A stretch of DNA of 64,000 nucleotides. Origin: Heliomicrobium modesticaldum Ice1. GTDB lineage: Bacteria > Bacillota > Desulfitobacteriia > Heliobacteriales > Heliobacteriaceae. How positions within the stretch are numbered: position 1 is the first letter of the stretch; each line of letters opens with the position of its first letter. This document shows positions 5,391 through 39,167 of this stretch, piece after piece. The position numbers and the translations under genes are program-made. The stretch is taken from positions 124,001 through 188,000 of the forward strand of contig NC_010337.2 of NCBI RefSeq assembly GCF_000019165.1, written 5' to 3'. A model generated the notes under the pieces. The model was not told the origin of the DNA. It did no database searches and saw only the letters and a list, made by a program, of their open reading frames with translations.

Positions 5391-5408
5391 AAATAAACCT
5401 CCTTTTGT

Positions 5409-8400: not shown

Positions 8401-11400
8401 GTGCCGCTATTAAGGCTTGCCGTCGCCTTTGCTGTGTCCGGGCCTGTTACAATAGCCGTGATGGTCAGCGGGTCATTGTCCGTATCTTCCGCGATATCGG
8501 AAGCGGTGAAGGTGGCCGTGCCGCCCGCGGTCACGCTTTGAGTTGGCACCGGATTTTTCGCCGTTGGCGGGTTGTTCGCAGGAGGCGCCGTATTCACCGT
8601 CAAAGTTGCCGCATTGCTGGTTGCGCTGCCCGCGGCATTGCTTACATAGCAGGTGTAGCTTCCGGCATCCGCCGCCTGGGCATTGCTGATTGTCAGTGTT
8701 GCCGTTGCGGCCCCGCTGATGTTGCCGCCGTCGGTCAGGTCCGCCCCGTCCTTCTTCCACTGGTAGCTTAGAGGCTCCGTGCCTGTGGCTGCTACCGTGA
8801 AGGTGGCTGTCTGGCCTGCCGTTACCGTCTGATTAGTCGGTTGGGCAGTAATGGCCGGAGGCACAGGAGCCGGATTAATGGTTATGCTCAAGGCTTTTGT
8901 GTCGCTGCCTGCGCTGTTGTCAGCCTTTACGGTAAAGTTAAATGTACCGGCGGCCGTCGGCGTTCCGGATATGTTTCCATCACCTGACAGTGTCAGTCCG
9001 GTTGGCAGGCTTCCGCTATCAAGGCTCCAGGTGATGGGCGCATCACCGGTTGCTGTAAGCGCCTGGCTGTAAGCAGTGTTCACCGTGCCATCAGGCAGGC
9101 TTGCCGTGGTAATGGCCGGAGCTGCAGGAGCTGCCGTGACGGAAACCGGTACGGTTACATCTGCTGTGTCCGTCCCGTCGTAGACCGTGACCACAACCGA
9201 TGTGTCGCCCGCCGCCACGCCGGTGAGGGTAACAGTGCCGCTATTAAGGCTTGCCGTCGCCTTTGCTGTGTCCGGGCCTGTTACAATAGCCGTGATGGTC
9301 AGCGGGTCATTGTCCGTATCTTCCGCGATATCGGAAGCGGTGAAGGTGGCCGTGCCGCCCGCGGTCACGCTTTGAGTTGGCACCGGATTTTTCGCCGTTG
9401 GCGGGCTATTTGACGGCGGATCCGCTTCGGTGGCCGGGAATACGGCGGTCACCACGCCCGAGCCAGCCGCGTTGGTTGCCGATGTGGCTCCGGCTACGGT
9501 AAAGAAGTTTTCAGCCACGCCTGTCAAGGTGTACCCGGCCTTTGGCGTCAGGGTTATGGTGGCCGTGTAGACCGTGCCGCCCCTGAACGGGTTGTCGGCC
9601 GGTGACCAGCTTACGGTTCCCGTATATTGGGCCGTTTCGGTTATCGCGGTTACGGGCGCCGCTCCCCTGGCCGGAGGGGTTACCCCCGGAATGGCGGCGA
9701 TGTCGATTACGGCGGGATTTACAGTTAAAGTTGCCGCGTCGCTGGTCACGCCGCCCGCGGCATTGCTCACATAGCAGGTGTAGCTTCCGGCATCCGCCGC
9801 CTGCACATTGCTGATTGTCAGGGTTGCCGTTGCGGCCCCGCTGATGTTGCCGCCGTCGGAAAGGTTATTGCCGTCCTTCTTCCACTGGTAGCTTAGAGGC
9901 CCCGTGCCTGTGGCTGCTACCGTGAAGGTGGCTGTCTGGCCTGCCGTTACCGTCTGGCTGGACGGCTGGGTGGTAATGGACGGAGGCATCACAAAGTCTA
10001 TTTCCAGATCGAAGCTTTTAACGGTCGTGTTGCCTGCATTATCCGTCAGTGTGATGGTCGCGGGGGATGTCCCGGCGCTTGCGGGTGTGCCACTGATTAC
10101 ACCGTCGCTGCTCATGCTCAATCCCGATGGCAAGCCGGCGGCGTTCCAGCTGTAGGGCGGGGTTCCGCCCGCAGCCCTCAAGGCCAGACTGGCTATGTTC
10201 AGCGCCTGGGCACTATAGTTAACCGCCAGCCGGCAGTCGTTGATGTTCAAATCCAGAGAACCCAGGTCTACTGCCAGTACCAAACTCATACTTGCCGTGC
10301 TGCCGGCGCCGTCTGTTACCGTGATAGTGGCTGTGGAGGTTTCAGTGGCTGTAGGAACGCCGCTGATTACTCCGTCGCTGCTCATGCTCAGTCCCGATGG
10401 CAAACCGGTGGCGCTCCAGCTGTAGGGCGGCGTCCCCCCTGAGGCCCCAAAGGCCACCCTGTCCACAATCGGTCGTTGAGGATGTACTGTGATCACCTTA
10501 TCCCAGAAAGGAATACTTCCGCCCCCACCGGCCAACTCCGCGATTTCTTCATCCGCAAGTACTCTGTAATACACCCGCAGGTCGTCCAGGTATCCGCCGA
10601 AGAACCCGGTATTATTAAAGCGCTTGCCGATATATAGATTTCCGGATGATTGCAAATTGCTGCTCGATGTCCGGGAGCCAAGCATGGCGCCATCCTGATA
10701 GATACGCTGAAGTTTCGTGCCGCTGTCATAGGTGACGGTCCAGTGGTGCCATCCAGTGTCGCCGGACACATTGACGTCCAGATCATTGTACCAAAAAGCG
10801 ATGCTGAATGTGGTTGCGTTGCGGAAGCCTACATGCAGCCCTTGGTTGTTGGCAGTGGTACCCTGGCTGATAATCCAATTTTCCCCATATTTGATGCATC
10901 TGGCCCAAAAGGCAATAGTAAAGGACTTGTCGGCCAGGTTAACTCCGTTCCCGGCATCAACATAATCATTGCTCCCGTCAAACATGAGTCCACCGTGGTT
11001 GGTAAAACTGATGTCCGGGGCGCCGTTTACCCAAGCGCCTGCGTCGGTATTGATCAGTGTACCATTGTAACGGTTGCCGGAAAAGTCCACGGCAAGACTG
11101 CCCTTTCCCTCGTCAAACCTCCAATACCCCTCAGGGTCTCCGCCGGATAATCTGGATACCCACAGGGTAGTATCACCAAGGCGGTTGAGTGCCAGGTTAT
11201 CAAACACCTTCACGTTGTTGTCGGTTTCAACAAAAGTATATCGCCCGGGCAGCTGTGCCTGTGAATCATCGCAGGCAAAACCTATGGTGCCGGTAAACAC
11301 CCCGCCGGTATTGCCGTAAATGTCTCCCCCGCCAGCTGTAACCCTGATCTGAAATGGCTTACCTGCCTCCACCGTGCCAGGCGTTTCCACAGTCAGGGTT

Positions 11401-14339
11401 TCAGGGCTGCCCGGCCTGACCGTTACAGGCGCGCTTTCGCCAAAAGAACCGTCATCTTCGGCGGCGGTGATGGTTATTGTCTCTGCATTGGTCAGCCTGA
11501 ATCCGCTAACCGTGGCCACACCATTGCTAAACATCGCCATCCCGTCGGCGGGCTTGACCGGTGCCGTGCCATTGGGCGAAGGGCTTGCCGTCCAGTTCCA
11601 GTTAATATTGTGTATGCCGCCATAGTCCGCTAAGGTTTGCCCCGACTGGTCCAGGGCGGTAAGTACCACGCTGAAGGTCTCTCCCGCTCGGACTTCGGCC
11701 GGCGCGCTCACCGCGAAAGATACGGCGTCGCCGGATCCAAAAACCAGTTCCCTTACTTCCTGCTCCGTCAAGGGCCGATTGAATACTTTGAAGTCGTCAA
11801 TGGCACCATAGAATGGATACCAGAACGTACCAAGTCTCCCGACATAGAAATCCTTGGCATTTGAGCCGCTAAAGTCCAGAGTGCCTGATAATGCCTGCTC
11901 CGCCACTTTTGCCCCATCCTTGTAGATCACAGCTCCGCTGGCTGAGATGACATAAGTTATATGCATCCATTTGCCGAGGGTGTAAAAAGGGCTGACAGAG
12001 GCGCTGGATCCCCCGCCTTTGATGGTATTGGTGTTTGTATTGCCATAGATCAGTGAATAGATCAGATTGCTTTGATCGCCGTCTTTGGCAAAAAAACACT
12101 GCCGACCCTTTTCAACCGCATTGCTGTTCCCGTCCATACCTCTTTCGCTGTCCACTCTGGCAAAGAAGGAAACGGTTAATCCGTCGGTGAACCGCAGCGA
12201 GTCGCTGTTGGCAATCATGATGTGGCCTGGCGCGTCAACGCCGCGAAATAAAGCGGCCTTTCCCATGATACCCGGCACATACTCCACATTACCGCCGGCC
12301 GTGCCATTATTGCCATAGGGTGTGCTATCTTCCGGATTGTCTTCGAATTTAAGATGCAGGACCAAACTGGGATCCACAAAGGCGCAGACCACAGTCCAAT
12401 CCTGGGTTTGGCCATGCTGAGCGGTTACGGTATAGATGACCGGATTGGTGAAATCCTGCGTTTGCCCTGAGGACGGCGATACCGTGGCGCTGCCTGTCAG
12501 TGTTATTGCCGGCGCCAGGGATGTTACATCCGCTCCTTCCGGCATATAAAAAGTCACCGTATGAGCCGCGGCATCTATTTTCGACATTCCCACCTGTCCG
12601 GCAACCGTAAAGCCGGTGATGCCGTTTTCATCACCGCTCCATTCCGTACGGGCTGTCAGCTTGGTAAGGGAATGGGTATAATTACCGACCCTGTCCTCGG
12701 CAAACAGATAAATGTCATAGTCTGTGCCCGAAACCAGCCCGCTGATCTCCACGCTGGCTTCCACTCCCGCCGCTGTACCGATCCAGCCCTTTCTATTGGC
12801 AGGCAATGCGTCCAAACCGTTTTCCGCCCGGCCGGTTGTCATCGAGTAGTAGAGATTCTCCGTAAACAACTGACTTAATGAAACGCCTTTGTCCAGTACC
12901 ACAAAATAGACATCAGCGTCCTCATCGGTCTTCACTTTCAGGCGAAAGCCCTGAGGCGTAGCTTCATCATAAGCAGGATAGCCTGTTTCAAAGCCGGGGG
13001 GAGCCAAATCGGGCGCAGGAATCTGCCAGCGGAGGTAAGGATACCCGCCCGTTTCAATGTTCCATACGTTATCAAAGTCCAGACCGGCAAATGACGCCTG
13101 TATCTTCATTTGGGATTCTGTCAGACCGGTGGTACCGCTTTTATCACTCGGTACCCATATGGGCCAACCAAATTTATCTTTGTTCCAAAAGCTGGTGCTT
13201 ATGCTCCCTTCATTTCTTCCAATCAATGCACCACAACGGTATTCCTCTTCGCTAAGATGATTGGATGTGTAGCATTTTACAACTGAACCGGTATTATGCC
13301 CTACCAACCCTCCGCCTATATATCTGGATGTCACATCCCCGACGGCATAGCAATCCGTTATTGAACCTCCGTCGTTCACACCTATCAAACCGCCTGCATA
13401 TCCGAGTCTTCCGATTGTACTGACAGTACAGCTGGAATAGCTGAATTTAATTGAAGCGCCATAATTAATCCCGATTAATCCTCCGCCTGCCCCATCGTTA
13501 TAAGTTGTTGTAGTTCTTACATCGCCACTGGAAAAGCAGTTTTCCACCAAACCGCCATACTTAGATCCTACCAGCCCTCCAATCTTGTAAGGTCCTTTAG
13601 TGCTGGTAACGGCATAGCAGTTAATGATATTTACATTATTTTGCGCATCTCCAATTAATCCTCCGGCATTGGCGCCGCCCGTTACCTGGCTTTGGGCATG
13701 GCTGTTCCGGATTGTTCCCCCATTTATAGTACAAGCCCCTATTAATCCGCCAATACAAAAACCATCACCGGTCACATACCCCGAAGCCCAGCTATCCTGG
13801 ATGTTGCTTCCGTCGCTTTTTCCCACCAATCCGCCCACTGTATGATAACCAAACACACTGCCGGAAAAGCTGCAACCGTTAATGGAAGCATTGCTGGCCC
13901 TGCCAACCAAACCGCCGGTTTCATATCTGCCGCGGACAAGCCCGTTTTTTATTATCACATTCTGAAAGCTTGCTCCATTAACAGAACCAAAGAGGCCAAT
14001 AATGTCCTCATTAGATCGGTCAATGGACAGATTCCTGATGCTGAAGCCGCCGCCGTCCAGGCTGCCGGTAAAAGGGGCCGACTGGCTGCCGATAGGCTGC
14101 CAGCTCATGTACCCCGACAGGTCGATGTCGGCCCCCAGCCGGTAATGGGCCGAGAGGTTGTTCCGCACCTCGTTCAACTGCTCGGGGGTGGTGATGACAT
14201 AGGGATCTCCCGCCGTCCCCGAACCGCTCCCCGAAAAGCCCGCCGCCTGGGCCGTCACCGGCGTGGCCAGGAACGCCACCGCCAGCAAAAAGCCGGTCAG
14301 AATGAGGCGGGTCCGCAAAATGGATAAAAGCTTTTTCAC
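5409..14339 (-). CDS. Giant SLH-anchored mosaic surface protein B (GLUG, LamG, Ig-like)
   Basis: 2976 residues. The start is GTG at 14339 after AAGGAGG. Residues 1-33 are a signal peptide (ends AQAA). Modules in order: GLUG repeats 33-413; DUF5018-like near 580-655; LamG/ConA-like lectin 656-873; a second LamG 1070-1273; putative Ig (He_PIG type, [16 protein letters not shown]) 1286-1440; Ig-like 1446-1540; cadherin-like and He_PIG modules to 1823; Ig-like 1823-1913; cadherin-like; Big2 2013-2100; two FN3-like 2200-2393; an InlB-type B repeat 2490-2560 ([10 protein letters not shown]); a polyglycine linker; a pre-SLH beta domain 2583-2793; three SLH repeats 2793-2975 with TRGQ, TRQE and TRAQ motifs. 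SLH repeats bind pyruvylated wall polymer, so this is a wall-anchored, possibly glycan-binding adhesin; the ligand is unknown. Its C-terminal third is nearly identical to protein G. Confidence 0.93.
6602..6650 (-). repeat. Polyglycine codon run in genes B and G
   Basis: A run of GGC/GGA codons encodes eight glycines then SGSSSS, at 6602-6650 and identically at 31448-31496. It is a flexible linker before the pre-SLH domain. Triplet repetition makes it a candidate for length variation. Confidence 0.6.
8300..8585. repeat. Internal direct duplication in gene B (partner 9134-9410)
   Basis: A cadherin-like module is repeated at offset 834 with the same 62-codon core (8353-8541 and 9187-9375). A third copy opens the window in gene A (about 85-360), and further copies are in D and G. 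Confidence 0.8.
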
Positions 14340-14431
14340 AAAATCTACCTCCTTGTTATGGTAATATTTAGAATCTGCTTTGCATGGGCAAATGCCCTGG
14401 GATTTTCCGGCAATGCATTTTGCCGCGGAAT

Positions 14432-14477
14432 ATTATAACAGGTCAACCTTTAGGCTCTATCCCTTTTTACCTTTAGG
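14432..14477 (-). promoter_or_regulatory. Promoter of gene B with direct-repeat operator
   Basis: The TATAAT box (minus strand) is at 14437-14432. Just upstream are two copies of ACCTTTAGG (plus-strand reading) at 14446-14454 and 14469-14477, start to start 23 bp. No good -35 hexamer is seen; the repeats occupy that space, which suggests an activator-dependent promoter. The same arrangement precedes genes C and G. The leader to the GTG at 14339 is about 85 bases. Confidence 0.6.
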
Positions 14478-14496
14478 GAAGGTAGATTTTTTCAGG

Positions 14497-14572
14497 GCTC
14501 AGGAGACAGGAGACAGAATACAGGAGACAGGAGACAGGAGTCAGGAGTCAGGAGACAGAATACGGAAGTCGG
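14497..14572. repeat. Degenerate CAGGAGA/CAGGAGT short tandem repeat
   Basis: About ten copies of a 7-base unit (CAGGAGA, CAGGAGT) are interspersed with CAGAATAC. They lie between the gene B operator and the kinase-tail fragment. Short traces of the same unit occur near 22857 and at 42219-42230 upstream of the kinase gene. Function unknown. Confidence 0.6.
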
Positions 14573-14594
14573 ATTATGGAACACGCATGAGGGC

Positions 14595-14629
14595 AAAAAA
14601 AACACAGGCTGTTTGCTTTAGCCTGCGTT
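14595..14629 (-). terminator. Rho-independent terminator after kinase-tail fragment 1
   Basis: On the minus strand a CAGGCT/AGCCTG stem with an AAAGCAAAC-type loop is followed by TGTTTTTTTT. It sits directly downstream of the kinase-tail pseudogene and upstream of the gene B promoter. Confidence 0.7.
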
Positions 14630-14638
14630 TGATGCCGC

Positions 14639-15225
14639 TTATGCCAATTCCTTTTGAATTTTCACAAGCTCACGGCGGATTTTTTCCGCCAGCTCCCCGG
14701 CCCCCTCAAGGGCGCCGGCGACGGCCTTTTCCTCCATCTCCCCGCACAGGGCGGCGAAGGAGGCGGCTCCGACAAACTGCCCGCTTGATTTCATCCCGTG
14801 GGAGAGCAGCCGGGCACGGGGGGCGTCTTTTTCCTTCAGGGCGGCTTCCAGCGCGGCAAGCTTTTCCGGCATATCCCTAAGGAAGGCGGCCAGCACCCGG
14901 GACAGAAGCGCCGGGTCCGCGCCCACCGTTTGCAGAAGCTCCGCCTTTTTCCCCTCCGGCACAAAGGAGGGGAGAATAACCCGGCTTGCGGCGGTTTCGG
15001 CGAAAGCGCCCCCCAAAACCTGCCGCCCGTTTTTCACGGCGCCCGGCAGCCAGCGCGCCAGCGTCCCGGACAGGGCGTCCAGCAGGACGGGCTTTTTTAT
15101 GTAATCGTCCATGCCGGCGGCAAGGCTCATTTCCTTTTCCTCAGGGGTATCGCCGGCGGTGACGGCGATAATGGGGGTATGCCTGTTTTTCCCGGCCTCC
15201 AGCCTGCGGATGGCTGCCGCGGCCT
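14639..15225 (-). pseudogene. Truncated duplicate of the hybrid histidine kinase 3' end (REC remnant + HPt), copy 1
   Basis: This stretch matches residues 801 to about 997 of the kinase at 39211-42216, including the last part of the receiver domain ([12 protein letters not shown]) and a full HPt domain with the phosphorylatable His ([12 protein letters not shown]). The receiver phospho-Asp (D790 in the parent) lies upstream of the break and is missing. The homology starts abruptly at GGCCGCGGC (15225). The frame stays open to a stop at 14639, and can be extended upstream to 15319 only by reading through a 12-bp palindrome, so no credible start or ribosome site is seen. It could still make a free HPt module, but a gene remnant from tandem duplication is the simpler reading. 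Confidence 0.8.
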
Positions 15226-15287
15226 CATGTTGATAAAGCTCTGTTTCAGGCCGTTCCTTAACCTTATCCTCAGTATTTGCCTTTGCC

Positions 15288-15317
15288 GCAGATCCGGCAT
15301 ATGAGTGCCGGATCTGC
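15288..15317. terminator. Perfect 12-bp hairpin after gene C
   Basis: GCAGATCCGGCA and its exact reverse complement are separated by the 6-base loop TATGAG, about 40 bases past the gene C stop. There is no T-tract, so it may be a stabilising hairpin or weak terminator. The same hairpin follows gene D, and a shorter one with the same loop follows gene G. Confidence 0.5.
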
Positions 15318-15355
15318 ATATTGCCAAGCTTTAGTTCCTTGCTGCATGTGTCCTT

Positions 15356-18300
15356 TTATTTTGTCAGCAAGTTATACAGTACCTGGGCCATCTGCGCCCT
15401 GGTGGTGGTGTCCTTAGGCAAAAGTTTGCCGCCGCTGCCGCCGATGGTGCCGGTTTCCACCAGCAGCTTCATAGCCTCTTTCGACCAGGGGGCAATTTCG
15501 CCTGTGTCACTGAAATCGGAAAGCCTTTTGCCGGAATCGCCTTCAGGCAGCCGTCCTATTACCTTCAGCGCGTTGTACAGCAAAGTGAACATTTCCTGGC
15601 GGGTGATTTCCTTTTCGGGGGCGAACACGTTGCCGCCCACGCCCGCGGATATGCCGGTCCGCTTGGCCGCGGCCAGGTAGCCGGTATACCAGGTATTGCC
15701 CGCGTCCGCGAAATTGTCCTGCGGGTTTTCATCGGGGGCGATGCCGTACGCCTTCAGCAGCATGACGATGAACTGCCCCCTGGTCAGCTTCGCTTCGGGG
15801 CTGAAATTGCCGCCTCCCGTGCCGGTAGTGATCTCCCTGGCGGCGATGAAGGAAACCGCTTTTGAGTACCACGCATCCTTTGCCACGTCCTTGAAGCTCA
15901 CCTGCTTGTAGACTACGGCGTAATAGCTGAAATGGGTGGTGGTGAAGGTAACGGTGCCGGTGGCCGGGTCGTAGCGCCCGTTGGGTACTGATATTACATT
16001 GCCGCTGCCGTCGATGTACCAGACGACGATATGCTCGGGATCGGCCAGCTCCGCCGCCGTCGGCGTATAGGGGATGCTTACCGTCACCGGAGCGTCCGGG
16101 TTGTTCCAAGCCTTTTGCTCGCCATCAACCGTAAGGCCCAGCTGTATCACCGGTTTATCGCCTACGGCGTTTCTAACCTCCTCCGGGAGAGTTGATTTGT
16201 CAACATTTTTAATTGTCAAGCCTGCATCACCCTGATTTTCAAATCCTGTACCAGCAAGCATGTTGCCCGGAAGTGTAACTGTGCCTGCATCAGTTTTGAT
16301 TTCAATGTTTATATCAGCCTGCGGATTGGAAAGGGCCGATGCCGGAAATTCCACATTGTAGCTTCCCGTAGCCGACTTGGACAGTTCAACTTCCAATGTC
16401 TTTTTCCCGTCATCACCTGTCAGTGCGCCTTCCAGGGCCATATTCAGAGCATCGGCATCAAGCTCTGTTTTTACGGTACCCGTAGCTGCATCCACAGTTG
16501 CGGTGGTCTTCAACCCGCCGACAGTCGCTGCCGGAGGTTGCACAGGCTGGGGTTGAAGGGTTGAGGTTCCGCCACTGCCTCTGTCATCATCCCTATCTCT
16601 ACTTGGCGCTGCCGCCCTGTTCACAGTGACTGTATATGTCCTGACGGTTACACCATCCTGTGCCGTAACCACAATAGCAATCGTGTTGCTTCCGACTTTA
16701 AGCGCTATGGGTTCGGAGGACCGACCGCTTTCAACATCCTTTCCGTTCACCTGCACCCTGGCATTTGCATCCGCTGCAACAGGGGTAACCGTTGTGCTTG
16801 TTACTCCATTGGCTACGCTTAGTGTATAGCTTACCGTATCCGGCGCGAAGCTCAAGCTCCCGGCGCTCAATGTCAGCCCGCTTAGGCTTGCATTGGAGGA
16901 TAGCGGTGGCTCTGCCACAGTAAAGTGTATGGTGTAGGTCAGCACAGTGCCGTCCTCGGCAGTGACCTCCACTTTGGCCGCTCCGGGCAGGGACGCAGCC
17001 TGAGTGATGCGCACGTTTGCCCTGGAGTCATTCGGCGTTGCGCTGACGAAGGCTGCCGGGCTGCCGGGCTGAGTGCCGTATGGCAGCTGGACAGTGTATT
17101 CATATTGTTTGTATACAAAGCCCGCAACGGTTTCTCCGCCCACTCTCAGATCGCTTAAAGCAGCGTCACCGGACGGCACGTAGCTGCTGACAGCGTTAAC
17201 TGTCAGTACCGCGCTGTCTCCCGCATTAAACGAGATTTCAAAATCTATGGAATTCCCATCGGTCAGATTTAGTCCGGAGAGGCAGGTTTCCTTTATGGTC
17301 AGGGTGTTCCCGCTAACGTTGTAATCCGCAGGCGATGTCAAATAAACTGAGCCATAGACCACATCAGTGACGGTAGCTGCGCTGCCCCAGGATATGGTTG
17401 TGCTTACGTCGCCGGGGCTATCCAGATCGAAAGTCACTGTCGTCGGGCTGATGGTTGCGCTGATGATTTGCGGTGTCGTATCGAGTATATTGATAGCCAG
17501 CGTCGCCGCATTGCCCCTGTCGAATTCCACCGTCAGCACAAGGCCGCCTGTGGGCTGAGTTGCCAGGTACTCCTTCTTTATAGTCAGGATATTTCCGTTT
17601 ACAGCATAGTTTTCCATTCCAATGGAGGCTCCGGCCTTCTTAACATCGGTAACGGCTGTGGCGCTATTCCAGGTGATGGTGGTTTCCACATCCGCCTGGT
17701 TGGCGATATTTTTGTCAAAATCCGCAGCATCCGAAGAAATAACGGCATTTTCTACTGTCTGGCCTATAACGGTCACATTGAAGGTTTTAATAGCCGCGTT
17801 GCCCCTCGAATCCTCCGCCATACAGGTTACCCTGGTAGTTCCCACCGGGAATACAGAGCCCGGCGTCCTTGAATACATGACCTCAACCGGACCGTCCACC
17901 AGGTCTGTGGCCGTAACGGAGAAATTAACCGCCGCGCCGCCGGAACCGGCCGCGTCGACTTCTACATCCCCCACAGGCCCAAAGGACGGCGGAGTGGTGT
18001 CCTGCACCTTGACAGTAAAGCCGGCTGTGGCGGTGTTGCCCGCCTGGTCCTGGGCGGTGACGGTTACGGCGGTGTCACCCACCGGGAATACGGAACCCGG
18101 GTTTTTGCTGTAGGTCACAGGCACTTCGCCGTCCACGGCGTCGATGGCCCTGGCATTGAAGTTGACGACCGCCCCGGCGGAAGAAGTCGCCTCGACCGTG
18201 ATGTTCACCGGCACTCCGATGGAAGGCGGCGCGGTGTCGGGCGGCGCCGCGCGGTTTATCGTGACGGTATAGGTCTTGGTGTTTTTGCCGTTCGGCGCGG

Positions 18301-21300
18301 TGACTGCAACCTCAACTTTATTCGCTCCCGCGCTGAGGGGCACTTCCCGCCATTCGCAGTACTGTACTGGATATGGAGAGTTGACATCATCGTATTGATA
18401 TTCCGCTGTAGCCCCGTTGATGGTCAGAGATGCTCCGGGGTACCAGGGTTTGGCGCGAAGGTAGATTTTATCCACCTCGCTGCCCACATTGACGGTGTAG
18501 GCTAAGTTGAAAGGGTAGGAAACCGGATTTAAGCTTTCTATGCTGTTCTTGTCTATGCTTACCTGCAGTCCGCTGTTAGGGTCCAACCAGGCGTTCGCAG
18601 AAGGGGAGCGCTGGATGGTAATGTTGTAGACCTTGCTCACCTGTCCGTTCGGAGAGGTAACGGAAAACTGCACAGGGATAGGGTCCCATGTATATATGTT
18701 TTCCACATGGATCTCATATAATAATGGATTTTGGGAGCCTTTGTCACCGTGAACCTTGTATTTCCTCCAGACATATTGTGTAGGCACCTGGAATGTCGAA
18801 CCGTCTGACGCGCATGCAAGCGTAATTATAACCGAACTCGGCCACCCCGGGTACGTGGTTGAATTGGCGTCTTCGTCCGGCTGATACGGGATGGTGAGGA
18901 AATAACTTGTAATTCGCGGATCGAAAGCATGGTCAAAACTTCCGCAGTTAGCAGAAATGCTGGTAAGATCGGCAATCATTTCCGGAGGTGTCGGCCGCGT
19001 AACGTAAAGATTATATGTCGAGGTATTGCCGTTTGCGGCAACGACGGTTATGGGAATGGTGTTCATTTCGACTCCAAGGGAAACGGTTACGCCCGGAACA
19101 CTGTGGTCGACAAAGACAGTCGAACCGGCATAGTCAATCATATGATTTACGAAAGTGTAAGCAGGATTGTTACCTGTAGTGTATTCGGGCGTTGCATACA
19201 CCTTAATGTGATCTACGTAGGAAGGCACCTCCGCGTGGAACCCGTCAGTGCCGGATGACGGCACAACCGTTTGATCGTTGCCGGATTGGTCTTTGTATAC
19301 AAACCTGACACTCTCCAGGCCCATGTCTTGGTTTGACAAATTGAACCTGATTACATAATCGGTCCGCTTAAGGTCGGCTAATGTTCTGACCGTGACGGGA
19401 ATCGACACCTGCTGGTCTTCGCGGATTTGCCCAAGATTTGCCGTCCACCCATCTTCTTTGGTGACCACTGCATTTCCTATATAGACTTTTACGTTCTCGC
19501 TTATGGGCTCTGCGGTTATATAGACGTTGGAGTCACTGTTCAAATCTAAACCATGGCCTAAGCTAGAGGGAGTTAGTTCTATGTTTTGAGCGCCTGCCCC
19601 ATCGCCTATCCTGACCGCCAGTCTTTTGAGCGGCACATTTGTCCGGAAGACATTGAGGCTATAAGTTTCCCTGGTTGTACCGTCCTGGGCGGTGACCACA
19701 ATCTCGAAGCTGTTCTCTCCCGGCTGGATTTCAACAGTTTTGCGAATGCCGTAGAGCTGGGACTGCAATTCTTCACGCTGATTTCCGTCCACCTTGTACA
19801 GGGTTGCCGTCGCGTGGGGCTCATTAACATCGGCGTAGATAGCAATACTGGCGACATCTTCACCGACGCTCACGGTATAGGATGTCGTGTTTTTGTCAAA
19901 GGCCGGATCCAGTGTGCCCTGGTTAACGCTCAGATAGGCAAGCGTGGCGTCGCTGGACGGAGCCCGGTTCACTTTGACCGTGTAGGTGTTGGTGTCCATG
20001 TAGTCGCCGACCTCAAAGGTAATGATGTTTTCTCCCACGTTGAGGGGGGCCTTGAAAGTTTGCCCGCTGGACCATGGCACGCCGTTCACTTTGAGGGTGG
20101 CTCCGATGTGGTCCAGTACCGGGACGAACTCAATATCGGTGCGATATAAAGGTACGTTGATAACATAATTGTTCTGGTCAGGACTAAACTGGTCAGGACT
20201 AAAGTATAAGGAATCATTCGGCGAACTCAGGGACCTGAGCTTGATGGAAGGACCCTGCAGCACCGACAGTTGGTATTCCTTCATTGTCCCGTCTTCCGCC
20301 CATACGGTGATCGGTACCAACATGTTGTATCCGTTGAGGTCTTCCGTGTACCGATTCGTATCCAGGCCCCAAAATCTCACTTTTGCGCCTGGGCTCTGGG
20401 GTTTTGCCTCAATGGTGACTAAATTGGTGTTGTAAGGAACATACGCAGTGTAGCTAGTATCAGTATCATTCAGCTCCGGTATCAGGTTGCGCTGCTTCCC
20501 GCCGACTGTTACGGTCAGCTCGCCCAGGTTGGCGTTGGACGAACCTTTTACGGTATAGAGATCATCAATGGGACCGTGATGCTCCTCCAGGAGCAGCTTG
20601 AGCAGGCTGGTATCCACGCTGGCGCCGCCCTGAACCCCCAGCTCCACGCCCTCGCCCAGGTTGACGCCGCCGCTGGCGCCCACCGAGATGTCAATGCCCG
20701 CCTGCGCCAGGCCCGTCACGTCGTCAAACTGCAGCTCGCCCAGGGAGGTCACGAAGAAGATCATTTCGGGGTTTGCTTTCATGTACACGGAGGCTCCGCC
20801 GTCCACCGTCACCGTCGCCTCGGCTCCCAGGTCGGCGCTGGCGCCAATACCGAGGTCAAGGCCGAACATGGACCCGCTGATGCTTTTGATAAACTCAAGC
20901 AGGTGCTCCTTGCCCCCTTGGATGTAATTTTCGATGTTCCGCAGCGGTTCCAGGCTGCCTTCCCTGGCGGCATGAAGCATGGCGCGGTTTAGCCCCCTGA
21001 GGCATTCGATACTGGTCTTGGACGCCTCGACCAGCGGCCTGGCCGAAAGCTCCGCGGTAAGCTGGACATAGAGGGGCGTGCAGATGTCGAGTCTCAGCAC
21101 CGTCCCCTCCGCCAGGTTGTCAACCACTTCGTCCAGCCTGTCAAGCTGGTCCGGCACATCCCGGTCCACATTGCCGCTCAGCATGTTGCCCAGGAAAAGG
21201 GCCAGGCCTTCGACAGTATCGCTGATGAATTCTCCATTGGCAGCCGCCACCAAAGCCTCTCCCCCGGGAATTGAGGCATCGGCCGCAAAAAGGTTGAAGG

Positions 21301-22714
21301 AGCTTTCAGTGCCGCCGTCGCCGCCACCAGAGGTACTGCCTTCTCCCGCTAGGTCAAGGGATAAGGAAATGCCGACACTGGTTTGAGCAACGGCCCCTAC
21401 AGTATCATTGACTATATTTTCAAATACCGGTTTTGCGCCGTTTTCCCAGGAATTCCGGAGCCTCGCGGTCACTTCATTCAGAGTTTCGCTGCTAAGATCG
21501 CCGCTTAACACACAGGATGCAATCCGGTGGATATCGTTAGCCATCAGCTCGGTATTTTCCAGTAAACCATCCAAAGCGTCCAGCCCGATGTTTGCCGCCG
21601 CGTCCAGGGGCAATTCCAGATACAGCCCGCCGGAAGCGCTGATGCCCGGCCAGACGGAATCCGCCACTCCCAGCCCCACCAGCCCGGCGATATCCACGCC
21701 CAGGGTAACCGAACCAATGGCCCCGGGGTTTTCAGCGGAGCAGGCTTTCAACTGGCCAATGGCCGCCTTGATGACCCTGGCCGCCGCCTCGGGGCCGAGT
21801 TCGCCCTTTTCCGCCTCGGCGATCAGGGCCCTATTCATGGTGATCATAGTCCGGTTGGCGACCTTCTGCGCCTCCTGGGGCGACACGCCCACCGAGAAGC
21901 TGGCTTTGGCCTCGCCCTCAATGGATACCTCCGCGTCCGCCGTCCCCTTCAGGCTTACCTCAAAGTTGAGGTTTACCTGGGTGTCGGTCATGCCGCCGAT
22001 TTCAACCTTAATGTACTGCTCATCCTTAGACCCCCAGGGGATATAGCCGCGCGCATACACTGTGGGCATATCCATACCTAAAGGAAGCCGGGCATGGACA
22101 TAGTCACGCCCATTGGGGGTCATGTCATAGAAAGCAGTGGTTATGTGCCCGGAGTTCTCAAAATGAGGCGCGTTCCCCCCGCCCAGAGGGTCGTCGTTGG
22201 CGATGCCGAAAACGGCCTGGCTGCGGCCGGGGCCGTCCACCCATATGCACAGTGAAATGTAATCCCCCTGCTTCTTCGCCCAGGCTTTCGCTCCCATATC
22301 GTTGCCCAAGTCTCCCGGCATGGGCACGGCAACATCAACGTCGAAGTCAATGGGTACGGCGCCCAGAATTTCAGTAACAACGTTTCCGGTTTCCGCAATT
22401 TCCCGCAGCACCGGCATGATCACGGAAAGCTGCGCTGCCGCCTCTTCCGCTTTTGCCTTGGTGTCGTCCATGACCATTTCCGGTACTTTCTCCAACACCG
22501 GCAGAGTGCCGTTCACGGTGTCTTCCAGAGTCTCGGCCACATCGTCCGCCAGATCCTTCATGCCCGTTTGTTCAAGAGCTTCGTTGACCAGATCCTCTAT
22601 TGACGGAAGCGCGTATGCCTTAGCAGGCATAACTGGATTCACCGTCAGCAACAGGACAAGGAATAGGACAAGAAAAGAACTGGCCCTCCTTTTCCTGCTT
22701 CGTCTGCTATTCAT
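15356..22714 (-). CDS. Giant SLH-anchored protein C with unique N-terminal domain and cadherin-like repeats
   Basis: 2452 residues; ATG at 22714 after GGGAGG, with spacing 8. Residues 1-33 are a signal peptide after an RRSRKRR basic start. Residues about 34-735 are a region I do not recognise: alternating helical stretches and Gly/Ala/Val-rich strands (for example LGVDIAGLVGLGVA). Then come cadherin-like beta-sandwich repeats (about 738-1490; LAYLSVNQGTLDPAF, TSYTVSV), two HYR modules (1491-1651; SVFPVGxTxVT), two X2-type Ig modules (1651-1838; ATVTDV), two more cadherin-like repeats, a Pro/Gln linker, a pre-SLH domain (2071-2268) and three SLH repeats (2268-2451). The last ~380 residues resemble those of B, D and G, while the rest is distinct. 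It has its own promoter. A role as a wall-anchored structural or adhesive protein is inferred. Confidence 0.92.
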   Translation of the reverse strand: MNSRRSRKRRASSFLVLFLVLLLTVNPVMPAKAYALPSIEDLVNEALEQTGMKDLADDVAETLEDTVNGTLPVLEKVPEMVMDDTKAKAEEAAAQLSVIMPVLREIAETGNVVTEILGAVPIDFDVDVAVPMPGDLGNDMGAKAWAKKQGDYISLCIWVDGPGRSQAVFGIANDDPLGGGNAPHFENSGHITTAFYDMTPNGRDYVHARLPLGMDMPTVYARGYIPWGSKDEQYIKVEIGGMTDTQVNLNFEVSLKGTADAEVSIEGEAKASFSVGVSPQEAQKVANRTMITMNRALIAEAEKGELGPEAAARVIKAAIGQLKACSAENPGAIGSVTLGVDIAGLVGLGVADSVWPGISASGGLYLELPLDAAANIGLDALDGLLENTELMANDIHRIASCVLSGDLSSETLNEVTARLRNSWENGAKPVFENIVNDTVGAVAQTSVGISLSLDLAGEGSTSGGGDGGTESSFNLFAADASIPGGEALVAAANGEFISDTVEGLALFLGNMLSGNVDRDVPDQLDRLDEVVDNLAEGTVLRLDICTPLYVQLTAELSARPLVEASKTSIECLRGLNRAMLHAAREGSLEPLRNIENYIQGGKEHLLEFIKSISGSMFGLDLGIGASADLGAEATVTVDGGASVYMKANPEMIFFVTSLGELQFDDVTGLAQAGIDISVGASGGVNLGEGVELGVQGGASVDTSLLKLLLEEHHGPIDDLYTVKGSSNANLGELTVTVGGKQRNLIPELNDTDTSYTAYVPYNTNLVTIEAKPQSPGAKVRFWGLDTNRYTEDLNGYNMLVPITVWAEDGTMKEYQLSVLQGPSIKLRSLSSPNDSLYFSPDQFSPDQNNYVINVPLYRTDIEFVPVLDHIGATLKVNGVPWSSGQTFKAPLNVGENIITFEVGDYMDTNTYTVKVNRAPSSDATLAYLSVNQGTLDPAFDKNTTSYTVSVGEDVASIAIYADVNEPHATATLYKVDGNQREELQSQLYGIRKTVEIQPGENSFEIVVTAQDGTTRETYSLNVFRTNVPLKRLAVRIGDGAGAQNIELTPSSLGHGLDLNSDSNVYITAEPISENVKVYIGNAVVTKEDGWTANLGQIREDQQVSIPVTVRTLADLKRTDYVIRFNLSNQDMGLESVRFVYKDQSGNDQTVVPSSGTDGFHAEVPSYVDHIKVYATPEYTTGNNPAYTFVNHMIDYAGSTVFVDHSVPGVTVSLGVEMNTIPITVVAANGNTSTYNLYVTRPTPPEMIADLTSISANCGSFDHAFDPRITSYFLTIPYQPDEDANSTTYPGWPSSVIITLACASDGSTFQVPTQYVWRKYKVHGDKGSQNPLLYEIHVENIYTWDPIPVQFSVTSPNGQVSKVYNITIQRSPSANAWLDPNSGLQVSIDKNSIESLNPVSYPFNLAYTVNVGSEVDKIYLRAKPWYPGASLTINGATAEYQYDDVNSPYPVQYCEWREVPLSAGANKVEVAVTAPNGKNTKTYTVTINRAAPPDTAPPSIGVPVNITVEATSSAGAVVNFNARAIDAVDGEVPVTYSKNPGSVFPVGDTAVTVTAQDQAGNTATAGFTVKVQDTTPPSFGPVGDVEVDAAGSGGAAVNFSVTATDLVDGPVEVMYSRTPGSVFPVGTTRVTCMAEDSRGNAAIKTFNVTVIGQTVENAVISSDAADFDKNIANQADVETTITWNSATAVTDVKKAGASIGMENYAVNGNILTIKKEYLATQPTGGLVLTVEFDRGNAATLAINILDTTPQIISATISPTTVTFDLDSPGDVSTTISWGSAATVTDVVYGSVYLTSPADYNVSGNTLTIKETCLSGLNLTDGNSIDFEISFNAGDSAVLTVNAVSSYVPSGDAALSDLRVGGETVAGFVYKQYEYTVQLPYGTQPGSPAAFVSATPNDSRANVRITQAASLPGAAKVEVTAEDGTVLTYTIHFTVAEPPLSSNASLSGLTLSAGSLSFAPDTVSYTLSVANGVTSTTVTPVAADANARVQVNGKDVESGRSSEPIALKVGSNTIAIVVTAQDGVTVRTYTVTVNRAAAPSRDRDDDRGSGGTSTLQPQPVQPPAATVGGLKTTATVDAATGTVKTELDADALNMALEGALTGDDGKKTLEVELSKSATGSYNVEFPASALSNPQADINIEIKTDAGTVTLPGNMLAGTGFENQGDAGLTIKNVDKSTLPEEVRNAVGDKPVIQLGLTVDGEQKAWNNPDAPVTVSIPYTPTAAELADPEHIVVWYIDGSGNVISVPNGRYDPATGTVTFTTTHFSYYAVVYKQVSFKDVAKDAWYSKAVSFIAAREITTGTGGGNFSPEAKLTRGQFIVMLLKAYGIAPDENPQDNFADAGNTWYTGYLAAAKRTGISAGVGGNVFAPEKEITRQEMFTLLYNALKVIGRLPEGDSGKRLSDFSDTGEIAPWSKEAMKLLVETGTIGGSGGKLLPKDTTTRAQMAQVLYNLLTK

Positions 22715-22792
22715 ACATTTTTCCTCCCTTCTTAATTTGCAAAGGCAATCTTCATAATGCCTTTTTCAAACAATTCATTTTGCTTCCGGAAC

Positions 22793-22838
22793 ATTATAGC
22801 AGGTCAACCTTTAGGCTCTATCCCTTTTTACCTTTAGG
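22793..22838 (-). promoter_or_regulatory. Promoter of gene C with direct-repeat operator
   Basis: TATAAT (minus) at 22798-22793, with ACCTTTAGG repeats (plus reading) at 22807-22815 and 22830-22838, again 23 bp start to start. Leader about 78 bases. The sequence is almost the same as the gene B promoter, including the TTCCCTAAAGG flank. Confidence 0.6.
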
Positions 22839-22900
22839 GAAGGTAGATTTTTTCAGGAGTCAGGATACGGAAGCCGGATTATGGAACACGCATGAGGGCA

Positions 22901-22936
22901 ATAAAAAACACAGGCTGTTTGCTTAAGCCTGCGTTT
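22901..22936 (-). terminator. Rho-independent terminator after kinase-tail fragment 2
   Basis: Minus strand: CAGGCTTAAGCAAACAGCCTG followed by TGTTTTTTA. Same stem as the terminator at 14595-14629, placed just after the second kinase-tail copy. Confidence 0.7.
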
Positions 22937-22940
22937 GATG

Positions 22941-23533
22941 CTACTGTGCCAGTTCTTTTTGAATTTTCACAAGTTCCCGGCGGATTTTTTCCGCCAGCTC
23001 CCCGGCCCCATCAAGGGCGCCGGCTACGGCCTTTTCCTCCATCTCCCCGCACAGGGCGGCGAAGGAGGCGGCTCCGACAAACTGCCCGCTTGATTTCATC
23101 CCGTGGGAGAGCAGCCGGGCACGGGGGGCGTCTTTTTCCTTCAGGGCGGCTTCCAGCGCGGCAAGCTTTTCCGGCATATCCCTAAGGAAGGCGGCCAGCA
23201 CCCGGGACAGAAGCGCCGGGTCCGCGCCCACCGTTTGCAGAAGCTCCGCCTTTTTTTCCTCCGGCACAAAGGAGGGGAGAATATCCTGGCTTGCGGCGGC
23301 GGTTTCGGCGAAAGCGTCCCCCAAAACCTGCCGCCCGTTTTTCACGGCGCCCGGCAGCCAGCGCGCCAGCGTCCCGGACAGGGCGTCCAGCAGGACGGGC
23401 TTTATTATGTAATCGTCCATGCCGGCGGCAAGGCTCCTTTCCTTTTCCTCAGGGGTAGCGCCGGCGGTGACGGCGATAATGGGGGTATGCCTGTTTTTCC
23501 CGGCCTCCAGCCTGCGGATGGCTGCCGCGGCCT
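22941..23533 (-). pseudogene. Truncated duplicate of the hybrid histidine kinase 3' end (REC remnant + HPt), copy 2
   Basis: Second copy of the last ~195 codons of the kinase. It breaks at the same GGCCGCGGC junction as copy 1 and keeps an open frame to a TAG at 22941. The HPt His motif is intact. The receiver piece reads DDYIIKP, so one of the two lysines in the parent's KKP is changed. Both flanks are shared with copy 1: the terminator and promoter of an SLH gene on one side, and the 3' end of another SLH gene with its palindromic hairpin on the other. No phospho-Asp and no start with a ribosome site are visible. Likely a duplication remnant, possibly a free HPt. Confidence 0.8.
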
Positions 23534-23595
23534 CATGTTGATAAAGCTCTGTTTCAGGCAGTTCCTTAACCTTATCCTCAGTATTTGCCTTTGCC

Positions 23596-23625
23596 GCAGA
23601 TCCGGCATATGAGTGCCGGATCTGC
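23596..23625. terminator. Perfect 12-bp hairpin after gene D
   Basis: Same GCAGATCCGGCA palindrome with TATGAG loop as after gene C, about 40 bases beyond the gene D stop. No T-tract. Confidence 0.5.
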
Positions 23626-23663
23626 ATATTGCCAAGCTTTAGTTCCTTGCTGCATGTGTCCTT

Positions 23664-26600
23664 TTATTTTGAGAGCAAGTTATACAGTACCTGGGCCATC
23701 TGCGCCCTGGTGGTGGTGTCCTTAGGCAAGAGTTTGCCGCCGCTGCCGCTTACTGTTCCGGTTTCCACCAGCAGCTTCATAGCGTCCTTTGCCCAGGGGG
23801 CGATTTCGCCTGTGTCACTGAAATCGGAAAGCCTTTTGCCGGAATCGTCGCCTTCAGGCAGCCGTCCTATTACCTTCAGCGCATTGTACAGCAAAGCGAA
23901 CATCTCCTGGCGGGTAATTTCCTTTTCAGGGGCGAACATGTTGCCGCCCACGCCCGCGGATATGCCGGTTCGCTTGGCCGCAGCCAGGTAGCCGGTATAC
24001 CAGGTGCTGCCCGCGTCCGCGAAATTGTCCTGCGGGTTTGCATCGGGGGTTATGCCGTACGCCTTCAGCAGCATAACGATGAACTGCCCCCTGGTCAGCT
24101 TCGCTTCGGGGCTGAAATTGCCGCCTCCCGTGCCGGTAGTGATCTCCCTGGCGGCGATGAAGGAAACCGCTTTTGAGTACCACGCATCCTTTGCCACGTC
24201 CTTGAAGCTCACCTGCTTGTAGCTTACGGCATAATAGCTGAAGTGGGTGGTGGTGAATGTCACGGTGCCTGTATCCGGGTTGTAGCGCCCGTTGGGCACT
24301 GAGACCACATTGCCGCTGCCGTCGATGTACCAGACGACGATATGCTCGGGATTGGCCAGCTCCGCCGCTGTCGGCTTATAGGGGATGCTTACCGTCACCG
24401 GCGCGTCGGGGTTACTCCAGTTTGTCTGCTTGCCATCCAGCGTCAGGGTAAGCTGGACAATGGGCCGGTCGCCGATTGCTGCTTTTACTTCCTCCGGCAG
24501 GCCGGTTTTGTCGCCCTGTGCGATGGTGATGCCCGCTGTTTTTTCTTCCGTTCCCGGTATTCCAGCCAGCATGCCGGACGGCATGGTGATGCTGCCCTCG
24601 CCGGTGGAGAAGGTCAGGGCGCCTTCGCCCTGTGAGCCGGACAGGGAAGCGGCGGGTATTCCTACGGTATAGGAGTTCACGCCGGGAATCGAGGGCACTG
24701 TGAGGACTGCCGTCCCCGTGCCGGCAAAGATATCTTTGGCCAGTGCACCAAGGTCTGTTGCCGCACTGCCCATATTTGTATTGACACTGACGGGCATTTT
24801 GGTTTCTGATATGTTGGTCCCGGAAACGGTGGCCTTGTATGTTGGCATGGCAGGAGTGCTGCCGGTGATAGCACTGCCGCCTCCGCCACTGCCACCTCCG
24901 CCTCCGCCACCGGCACTGGAAGCCGTCAGGGTAACCGTGTAGGTGTCGGCGGAGTCCGCCGTACCGTCATTGGCTTTGAATACCAGTGGGGTTGTGCCTA
25001 CAGCATTTGGCGTGTAGGAGTAATCTTTATCTGCCCCAGCATACGCTACGCCGTTCACCGATACCTTGTAGGTCAGATTGTCGCCGTCGGCATCCTCGAA
25101 TATGGTGGACAGATCAATGGTGTAGGCGCTGTTCACGGTCACGCTGGCCGTTGCGGTCGCGGGCACGCCGGATTTGCGCTTCGGCGCAGTGTTCACGGGG
25201 GGCGCAGCCGCGGTGGTTACTGATGTCATGGTGTAAGCGGTTTTGTTCCCTGCTTCGTCCATAACGATAACGTTAAAGTAGTAGGTGGTATTGCTATTCA
25301 AGCCGGTAATTTCTTTTGTGTCTGTATCTGTTGCGTAATCTCCGACTGCTGTGCCGTTATATACCGCGTCTGTTACCGATGCTATATTGTCTGAATCCGA
25401 ATAATAGACCCGATACCGCAGAGCGCTCTGGGGGCTCACATCGTCCGTCGCCTTGCTCCAGCTCAAAGTGACTCGGTTATGGGTGAGGCTGCCGGCAGTG
25501 ATGGTTCCGTCCGCCACGACCGGCGGAGTGGTGTCGGGCTGGGCCGGTTCCGCATCCGTCGTGACGGTCAGCCCCGCGCTCTCGGCCGATGCCTTGTGGG
25601 TGGCCGTTTCCTTGACCCTGGCCGTGAAGGTGTATTCGGTTTCCGGATCCAGTCCCGTGAATACATTGCTGTCCTGCCACGGGCCTCCGTTTACCCTGAA
25701 TTCGCAGGCTGCACTGGTGGTCAGCGTAACGCTGTCGTGCGTCTTGCTTGCCAGCGAAGGTGCTCCCGGGGCCGCCGGCCCGTCGGCTTTGTCCACAACA
25801 GCCGTCGGATCGCTGGTGACGCTGCCTGTGGCATGAACGCCATCGGCGGTGACGGTCACGGTGATGGTCTGGCCGATGTCGGCCTGCGCCAATGTGTAGG
25901 TTGAGGCTGTGGCCCCCGGGATATCCGCTCCGCCGCGCTTCCACCGGTAGGTGGGTACATCCTCGGTAGTATTCGGTGTATAGGTTATACCTGATGTTAC
26001 CGCTGTCAGTGTTTCGCCGTATTTGGCACTGCCGCTGATGGTTACACTGCCGCCCATGACCGGCAGCGGCGCCGCCGTGACGGTGATGGTTGCCTCGCCG
26101 TATACCCCGGAGCCGTCGTTAGCCGTCGCCCTTACCGTCACCGTGCCTTCTCCGGTGCCCGTCAGCAATCCGGTGGAAGCGTTTATGCCGGCTGTGCCCG
26201 TTCCGGAATACACGCTCCAGGTCACGGTTTTATCCGTGGCATCAACAGGCAATACTTCCGCTGTCATTTGCAGGGTACCGCCGTTCACTACTGTTGCCGC
26301 GTCACCTGCCCCTCTTACGGTGATGGAGGTTACCAGGGTGGGCGGCGCCGCCGTTACCGAAACCGGTACGGTTACATCTGCTGTATCCGTCCCGTCGTAG
26401 ACCGTGACCACAACCGATGTGTCGCCCGCCGCCACGCCGGTGAGGGTAACAGTGCCGCTGTCAAGGCTTGCCGTTGCCTTTGCTGTGTCCGGGCCTGTTA
26501 CAATAGCCGTGATGGTCAGCGGGTCATTGTTCGTATCTTCCGCGATATCGGAAGCGGTGAAGGTGGCCGTGCCGCCCGCGGTCACGCTTTGAGTCGGCAC

Positions 26601-28076
26601 CGGATTTTTCGCCGCTGGCGGGCTATTTGACGGCGGATCCGCTTCGGTGGCCGGGAATACGGCGGTCACCACGCCCGAACCAGCCGCGTTGCTTACCGAT
26701 GTGGCTCCGGCTACGGTAAAGAAGTTTGCAGCCACGCCTGTCAAGGTGTATCCTGTCTTTGGCGTCAGGGTTATGGTGGCCGTGTAGACCGTGCCGCCCC
26801 TGAACGGGTTGTCGGCCGGTGACCAGCTTACGGTTCCCGTATATTGTGCCGTTTCGGTTATCGCGGTTACGGGTGTTGCCCCCCTTGCCGGGGCGGTTAC
26901 TCCCGGAATAGCAGCAATGTCGATTGCAGCCGGCGGTTCAATGATATTGATGGCAAAGCTCCCCCCTGCGCTCCCCCCGGCGGTCCCGTCGGAGACGGTA
27001 AAGCTGAAGCTGTCAGCGCCGGTTGCATTGGTGTTCGGTGTATAGGTAATCAGGCTGTTGTCGATATCGGCCTGGGTGAAGGTCCCGCCTGCGGCGACTG
27101 CATTCCCGTTTTTCTTCAAAGTTCCCCTGGCAGGCGCCGTTCCCACGGCAAAGGTCAGGGAAGCCGCCCCCTGTTCGGGGTCGGTGGCCCTAAGCATGGT
27201 ATCGGTGATGGTCACAGCCTGGCTGTTCTTATTGACGCTTAGTCCGGTATTGACCGCCAGCACCGGCGGATTTCCGGTGGTAAAGCTGCAGGCGCCGCCG
27301 TAAGCGGTCCCGAAAGCATTGGTGACGTATGCTTTGTAATAGTAAGTGGTGTTCGCCTGCAGACCGCTGAGCGTCGCTGTAAACGGGCCGGTGGAGCCGG
27401 TGCTTCCCGCAGACACAGCTGTGCCGGAGGCCAGCGTAAGATTGGCGGGGTTGGTGGAGTAGACGATTCCCCGTTCCACGGTGGTGTCGTTTCCCAGTGA
27501 GGTGACGTTTCCGCCGGCGACGGCGGAGGTTGCCCCCACCGAGGCCGGAGCGGCATTGGTGGTTACGGTCGGATCGGTCGTCCCGTAAATCTTCAGTTCG
27601 GTGATGGCAGCCCATTTATTGTTCAGTCCGTTTCCGGTGTCCACCCGAACCCGGACATAGCGCGTGGTATAAGGGATGGAGATATTAAAAAAGCTTGTTC
27701 CATCCGGGCTTGCCTGCACCTGGTAATGCTGAATATTATAGGCAGTGCTCCACCCCGCGGAGGACATGCCTATCACTTCGATATTGTCAATCCGGTAACT
27801 GCTGCCCAGATCCACCTGCAGCCACTGGTTGGTTACACCGTAAGCTTTGGCGCAGACCCAGCGGCTGGCCGGAGCGGTGCTGCCGTCCACCGCCCGTTCC
27901 GGCCCGTAAGGCGCCATAAAGCTACTGGCTGATACGCCGACAGGCGATATGGGAATTAATTTGCCGGCGGCATGGGCCGTCTGTGCAATTCCCAGCATCA
28001 ATACCAAAACAATAACTGCCACTGCCGCAAGGCGACCGGCAATCCCGGCTATTCCAAATTTATGAGTTATTTCCAT
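23664..28076 (-). CDS. SLH-anchored surface protein D with F5/8-type C (discoidin) domain
   Basis: 1470 residues from the ATG at 28076, which follows GGGGG at 7 bases; an upstream TTG at 28094 is less likely. Residues 1-36 are a signal peptide (ends AHAAG). An F5/8-type C/CBM32-like domain follows (about 32-165; [20 protein letters not shown]), suggesting carbohydrate or lipid-headgroup binding. Then an FN3-like module with [12 protein letters not shown] (172-268), a cadherin-like module, the shared block of Ig/Big2/FN3-like modules, a Gly-rich linker, the pre-SLH domain and three SLH repeats (about 1289-1470). The C-terminal two thirds are a more diverged relative of the block shared by B and G. 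It is the last gene of a probable F-E-D operon (gap to E 35 bases). Confidence 0.92.
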
Positions 28077-28111
28077 GACACAACCCCCTTTCAAGCTTTA
28101 CGTCCTTCTGA

Positions 28112-29032: not shown

Positions 29033-29052
29033 GTTCAACACCTCCGGAAATG

Positions 29053-37121: not shown

Positions 37122-37167
37122 ATTATAGCAGAGCAACCTTTAGTCTCAATCCCTTTTTACCTTTAGG
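37122..37167 (-). promoter_or_regulatory. Promoter of gene G with direct-repeat operator
   Basis: TATAAT (minus) at 37127-37122, with repeats ACCTTTAGT (37136-37144) and ACCTTTAGG (37159-37167), plus-strand reading, 23 bp start to start. The leader to the ATG at 36953 is about 165 bases, longer than for B and C. The conserved core matches the B and C promoters, although flanking bases have diverged. Confidence 0.6.
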
Positions 37168-37232
37168 GAAGGTAAAGAATGAAATTTTTTTATAATTATG
37201 TGGAAATTTAGGTAAAAATGTCGCTTTAGGCA

Positions 37233-39133: not shown

Positions 39134-39167
39134 TAAAAAACGCAGACCGCCTGTCGTGGTCCGCGTC
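39134..39167 (-). terminator. Rho-independent terminator of the histidine kinase gene
   Basis: Minus strand: CGCGGACC, loop ACGACAG(GC), GGTCTGCG, then TTTTTTAT. The group II intron begins at the next base (39132), so the terminator is its 5' exon. Confidence 0.8.

Follow-up and report, generated by a model that had tools for sequence, protein, structure and literature searches.

Two truncated copies of the 3' end of a hybrid histidine kinase gene are embedded in an array of giant SLH protein genes of Heliomicrobium modesticaldum Ice1. We consider it likely that an imprecise tandem duplication within the array left these kinase tails behind as non-functional scars. The array itself is carried by a conjugative-type mobile element. 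The window, i.e., the whole 64,000-nucleotide stretch of DNA analyzed here (contig NC_010337.2, positions 124,001 to 188,000), encodes on its minus strand, in this order, the kinase, genes G, F, E and D, tail 2, gene C, tail 1, and genes B and A (Table 1; the gene letters follow what we presume to be the scheme of the earlier note).

Table 1 Features of the kinase-SLH locus (window coordinates)
Feature	Coordinates	Strand	Remarks
SLH gene A	1-5391	-	extends beyond window edge
SLH gene B	5409-14339	-	2976 aa; Ig, laminin-G, GLUG, SLH
Gene B promoter box	14432-14484	-	CTAAAGGT-N15-CTAAAGGT direct repeat plus extended -10 TGTTATAAT
Terminator after tail 1	14597-14628	-	intrinsic; homologous to JT and Dethiobacter kinase terminators
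Tail 1	14639-15225	-	truncated kinase 3' end upstream of gene B; ~98% vs kinase
Junction 1	15215-15225	-	AGGCCGCGGCA; putative microhomology, SLH terminator arm/kinase
Leader after gene C, joined to tail 1	15226-15355	-	hairpin 15289-15316
SLH gene C	15356-22714	-	2452 aa; cadherin-like, CBM_X2, HYR, SLH
Gene C promoter box	22793-22845	-	same box type as gene B
Terminator after tail 2	22903-22934	-	intrinsic; same family as after tail 1
Tail 2	22941-23533	-	truncated kinase 3' end upstream of gene C; ~97% vs kinase
Junction 2	23523-23533	-	AGGCCGCGGCA; putative microhomology, SLH terminator arm/kinase
Leader after gene D, joined to tail 2	23534-23663	-	hairpin 23597-23624
SLH gene D	23664-28094	-	end of G-F-E-D run; own promoter box absent
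Gene E	28112-29119	-	three phage tail collar domains
Gene F	29053-30141	-	no Pfam match
SLH gene G	30255-36953	-	fills kinase-adjacent slot in window and A05DMB13
Gene G promoter box	37122-37174	-	same box type as gene B
Group II intron	37233-39132	-	between kinase terminator and gene G promoter; site empty in A05DMB13 (L040)
Terminator after living kinase	39135-39166	-	A05DMB13 type; stem not homologous to tail terminators
Kinase segment copied in tails	39232-39818	-	receiver domain end plus Hpt; last fifth of gene
Crossover interval	39258-39289	-	entry point of A05DMB13-like kinase end, terminator, gene G
Hybrid histidine kinase (parental)	39211-42216	-	1001 aa; Pfam: 7TMR-DISM, HisKA, HATPase_c, receiver, Hpt
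OmpR-family response regulator	42329-43027	+	divergent from kinase; kinase-adjacent also in JT, A05DMB13, Dethiobacter

The presence of two near-identical kinase 3' fragments upstream of genes B and C, noticed earlier, was confirmed: the tails are 587-592 bp long and 97-98% identical to the kinase and, as is typical of pseudogene remnants, show truncated homology to an intact parental gene located nearby. Apart from the kinase and the two tails, the whole genome contains no further copies, which excludes a chance resemblance; no tail copies were matched in plasmids either. Orthologs of the kinase are present at related loci (L040, L041 and L042). In Pelotomaculum terephthalicicum JT, an intact kinase, a tail-type terminator, the promoter box and a homolog of gene C (C') follow each other directly in an array without tails, so that the tails are identified as kinase remnants. 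The only tail-bearing contig other than the window belongs to A05DMB11, a metagenome-assembled genome (MAG) in which this contig is possibly misbinned.

The order of genes in JT is kinase, C', F, E and a D/A chimera, which can represent either an ancestral or a rearranged state; a simple deletion derived from the window arrangement was rejected because F, E and the start of D are retained while C' is adjacent to the kinase. Genes E and F, which lie between the SLH genes G and D, are thus kept in JT. The JT chimera (L102, about 13105-18848) is split into two frames, either by a real frameshift or by a sequencing error.

According to the earlier note, each fragment is followed by a terminator and then by the promoter type found after the parental kinase. 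This claim holds, the box being that of gene G; the terminator of the parental kinase, however, differs from those of the tails (Table 1). The box lies beyond the tail terminators at 14459-14484 (B) and 22820-22845 (C), and is present once more at 37149-37174 (G). Its direct repeat CTAAAGGT-N15-CTAAAGGT is located just upstream of the extended -10 and occurs at these three sites only in the 3.08-Mb genome. Whole-genome counts are similarly low in JT (one site, before C'), A05DMB13 (one, before G) and A05DMB11 (two, C and B), and every site in the four whole genomes belongs to such a unit. Genes D and A have neither a tail nor a promoter box. The box is a putative target of the divergently encoded OmpR-type regulator, and control by the kinase/regulator pair next to it is probable.

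The kinase and the promoter of gene G are now 1.9 kb apart through insertion of a group II intron (39132-37233) immediately after the T run of the kinase terminator. The reverse transcriptase frame of the intron (37580-38728) appears to stop early owing to a frameshift relative to the following sequence. Between the terminator and the promoter of unit B, at 14490-14560, there is a minisatellite of the CTCCTGTCTCCTGACTC type that is dispersed in several Clostridia genomes. Short matches to many relatives at query positions 1173-1270 were discarded as merely a dispersed TCCTGTCTCCTGACTCCTG-type repeat rather than homology of the unit.

The joint between the SLH leader and the kinase

Homology of the tails to the kinase ends at the junction, and the 138 bp upstream, which are 99% identical between the two window copies, are the SLH-downstream leader. 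The approximately 130 bp that separate the SLH stop codon from the junction contain a strong hairpin and are related to the sequences downstream of gene G and of the JT homolog of gene C. Accordingly, the flanks are homologous beyond the kinase tail; the lack of such homology was one of two findings that, in the earlier note, would speak against duplication. The other, relatives with the fragments as independent intact genes, was not encountered: in a survey of 40 related genomes, none had a tail lacking a kinase-type parent, and an origin of the tails as independent small genes was rejected.

The unbroken parental state of the leader is found in a Dethiobacter MAG (L109), where the leader after the SLH gene continues without interruption into ATGAGGCAGCGGCATCAAACCCGCTGCCGCTGCCTCA, a terminator-like hairpin. 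The 5' arm of this hairpin, GAGGCAGCGGCA, matches the kinase codons CAGGCCGCGGCA in 10 of the 11 bases, and it is exactly at this match between the two parental sequences that the window switches to the kinase. In A05DMB11 (L111), one junction reads GGCAGCGGCA, as in Dethiobacter, and is then followed by the kinase. Few position pairs, 16 of 904,490, reach 10/11 or more when an SLH-downstream region is compared with the kinase. Given this rarity and the sequences in Dethiobacter and A05DMB11, the joint is best read as a microhomology joint at which a kinase tail has apparently taken the place of the SLH terminator, and, because the junction falls exactly on the 10/11 match, microhomology-mediated tandem duplication appears to be the best explanation for the tails.

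The earlier note also held that both fragments break at the same junction. Both indeed start with AGGCCGCGGCA, an 11-mer that is found in the window at the two junctions, in the kinase (39808-39818) and at one unrelated site (59364), but their identity seems to reflect, at least in part, later gene conversion, given that A05DMB11 has GGCAGCGGCA at one of its two junctions. The identity of the leaders is 99.3% between the two window units vs 95.7% between the window and A05DMB11 orthologs of one unit (C/B), and the sequences around the leader show the opposite trend, with orthologs closer to each other than paralogs. This pattern points to gene conversion of the leader, so the identical junctions in the window are weak evidence for two identical events.

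The following scenario can be proposed. The ancestral arrangement, represented piecewise in the relatives, would have consisted of an intact kinase, a terminator, a promoter, an SLH gene, the leader and a hairpin terminator. The 10/11 match between the 5' arm of the hairpin and the kinase codons would then have joined the leader to the interior of the kinase gene, a process deduced from the junction that is actually present, resulting in duplication of the segment comprising kinase tail, terminator, promoter, SLH end and leader, with loss of the 3' arm of the SLH terminator at every joint. Further recombination evidently involved the repeated flanking sequences (up to ~1.9 kb); it homogenized the leader and junction and led to exchange of SLH bodies as well as of the 3' end of the kinase. 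At present, transcription of the upstream SLH gene would continue across the tail and stop at the old kinase terminator, and a separate copy of the promoter box would drive each downstream gene. Because the breakpoint inside the kinase gene carried the terminator and promoter along, a new copy would have been insulated from the start, and, with the box probably under the adjacent kinase/regulator pair, new SLH genes would be born under the same control.

SLH gene bodies and later recombination

The proposal that duplication created the SLH gene family turned out to be too strong. The DNA shared by gene C with B, D and G is limited to the last ~0.85 kb (847 bp for B and C; 335 residues in the protein), and nothing in common was detectable between the body of C and those of B, D or G; the stretch common to genes B and G is 3.45 kb long and 96% identical. 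Head-to-tail copies are found for the leader, tail, terminator, promoter and SLH 3' end, i.e., the flanks common to the units extend into the SLH genes, covering their final ~0.85 kb; the SLH bodies are not so repeated, and the idea of repeated duplication of a unit survives with this restriction. Since B and C have unrelated bodies apart from the final 847 bp, plain duplication of a whole SLH gene is not today's picture. The event appears to have multiplied the promoter unit together with the SLH 3' end, not the whole family, which also includes D and A without tail or box, and the SLH bodies were apparently replaced or are of other origin.

The kinase itself bears the marks of recombination. 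Whereas the living window kinase ends as that of A05DMB13, both tails, including the terminators, match the kinase end of JT and Dethiobacter; the tails therefore keep the older kinase end. Up to position 39289, 36 consecutive informative sites group the window kinase with its own tails, and from 39258 onward the informative sites group it with A05DMB13; identity to this MAG is 99.6-100% over the following 3 kb, which take in the first half of gene G. Thus, a crossover within its last ~80 bp gave the living kinase its new end; the donor, an A05DMB13-like element, also contributed the terminator and gene G.

These exchanges bring up a different origin of the tails, namely, that they were not duplicated in place but came as flanks of SLH cassettes recombined from a second copy of the element, each unit being acquired and a single illegitimate joint ever having been made. 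The unrelated bodies of B and C between common flanks, the occupation of the kinase-adjacent slot by C' in JT and by G in the window and A05DMB13, and the arrival of the G cassette with the kinase end by crossover all fit such acquisition. We nevertheless regard it as rather unlikely because the first leader-to-kinase joint would still have to arise by an illegitimate, duplication-type event, A05DMB11 has two different junction sequences, and a donor element with a single tail was not found.

As in an S-layer cassette switching system, different bodies occupy one slot between conserved flanks. More tentatively, the flank made up of tail, terminator and promoter, together with that at the SLH 3' end, might serve as homology arms for S-layer cassette exchange on the conjugative element, with the kinase-adjacent slot as the exchange site and its residents under one two-component switch, although we consider this possibility doubtful. 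We infer that exchange is ongoing and that the box is regulated.

Coding capacity of the tails

Both tails retain open reading frames (226 and 228 aa) with an intact histidine region and an Hpt domain scoring well over the cut-off (44.6 bits). Conceivably, they could be functional small genes for stand-alone Hpt proteins that feed or compete with the kinase phosphorelay, but we consider this very improbable. With only 2-3% divergence, open frames say little. The frames (14639-15319 for tail 1), with the predicted leader-encoded N-terminus MQIRHSYAGSAAK, begin inside the stable leader hairpin and have no Shine-Dalgarno site and no promoter of their own. The dN/dS ratio between the tails is near 1, albeit with small counts (2 synonymous and 7 nonsynonymous changes over 164 codons), and is 0.8-1.4 for the window tail/kinase and tail/tail pairs (164 codons, 5-10 changes each). 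For comparison, the 5' part of the kinase has a ratio of 0.21-0.22 (window vs JT or A05DMB13), and the orthologous kinases have one of 0.28-0.54 over the tail region, which evolves faster than the 5' part; tail 2 of A05DMB11 vs the window kinase gives 0.24. Tail 1 of A05DMB11 has a 324-bp deletion that removes most of the Hpt domain. We favor the view, not considering it proven, that the tails are decayed and non-functional, the substitution ratios being compatible with neutrality. Finally, near-identical repeats of more than 1 kb are classic sites of misassembly, but an assembly or sequencing artefact in this repeat-rich region is hardly credible considering that the genome is a single 3.08-Mb contig, 99.99% complete, and that A05DMB11, an independent assembly, shares the joint of tail 2 and has a variant form of that of tail 1.

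The mobile carrier and other S-layer loci

The kinase-SLH region is part of a conjugative-type mobile element that starts ~10 kb before the left edge of the window and reaches ~33 kb past its right edge. The element encodes a MobL relaxase, a VirD4/TraG coupling protein, a TraG/VirB4-like P-loop ATPase and, at its left end, large serine recombinases, and so combines the relaxase, coupling protein and transfer ATPase characteristic of integrative and conjugative elements (ICEs). Large stretches of the backbone are 98-99% identical in JT and A05DMB13, whereas host rpoB segments align at only 68-73%. A BchL-type protein is encoded by the host of the window element. The right end of the element is at tRNA-Asp here (window coordinate ~96750, L100) and at tRNA-Ala in A05DMB13 (~56376, L108). 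A search for direct repeats at the element ends gave only chance matches of 10-14 bp and no clear attachment repeat.

Other parts of the element vary as well. The segment 43035-53139 is an insert with a type I restriction-modification system and a serine recombinase that is absent from JT, where the two-component system directly adjoins the transfer genes; A05DMB13 carries other DNA in this place, so the segment looks like a hot spot of variable genes. Two insertions of ~3.5 kb (window coordinates about 63958-67451 and 73655-77194, L099), absent from JT and A05DMB13, each contain three adjacent tyrosine recombinase-like genes resembling recombinase-in-trio elements.

Recombination between S-layer genes is known from other bacteria. 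In the slpA region of Clostridioides difficile, S-layer cassettes recombine and hybrid cassettes are known (PMC8809339, citing Dingle et al. 2013). As in that region, the present locus contains hypervariable surface-layer genes swapped as cassettes; however, the C. difficile cassette consists of five genes (with slpA, secA2 and cwp genes), is chromosomal and is not on a conjugative element, and no unit of kinase tail and common promoter is described for it in the text of that paper (PMC8809339). At the sap locus of Campylobacter fetus, several S-layer gene copies recombine, giving rise to, among others, sapAB recombinants (PMC4943207). The array described here is similar in that multiple S-layer copies, like sapA and sapB, recombine within one locus. 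The sap locus has a single promoter plus silent copies. In contrast, every unit here is equipped with a promoter box and a terminator of its own, and no inversion was seen in this array. With its position at a short and imperfect match (10/11) of sequences that are otherwise unrelated, the joint resembles those of bacterial microhomology-mediated tandem duplications, but here the unit begins inside the presumed regulating kinase and takes the terminator and promoter along. The cargo, a two-component system plus a giant SLH protein array, likewise sets this putatively transferable element apart from known ICEs. No paper describing this kinase-tail/SLH locus was found in our literature searches, and it is the kinase-tail unit and the mobile carrier that seem to differ from S-layer recombination in C. 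difficile and C. fetus.

The growth of this surface gene array is unusually legible because the parental states, the exact joint, the crossover and the gene conversion can be read from four relatives. Giant S-layer proteins together with their sensor appear to be mobile-element cargo common to distant Bacillota, and the tails indicate how the element gained, and probably swaps, surface genes with one regulated promoter type. If the exchange reading is true, hosts from different bacterial families would trade and switch giant surface proteins via this element.
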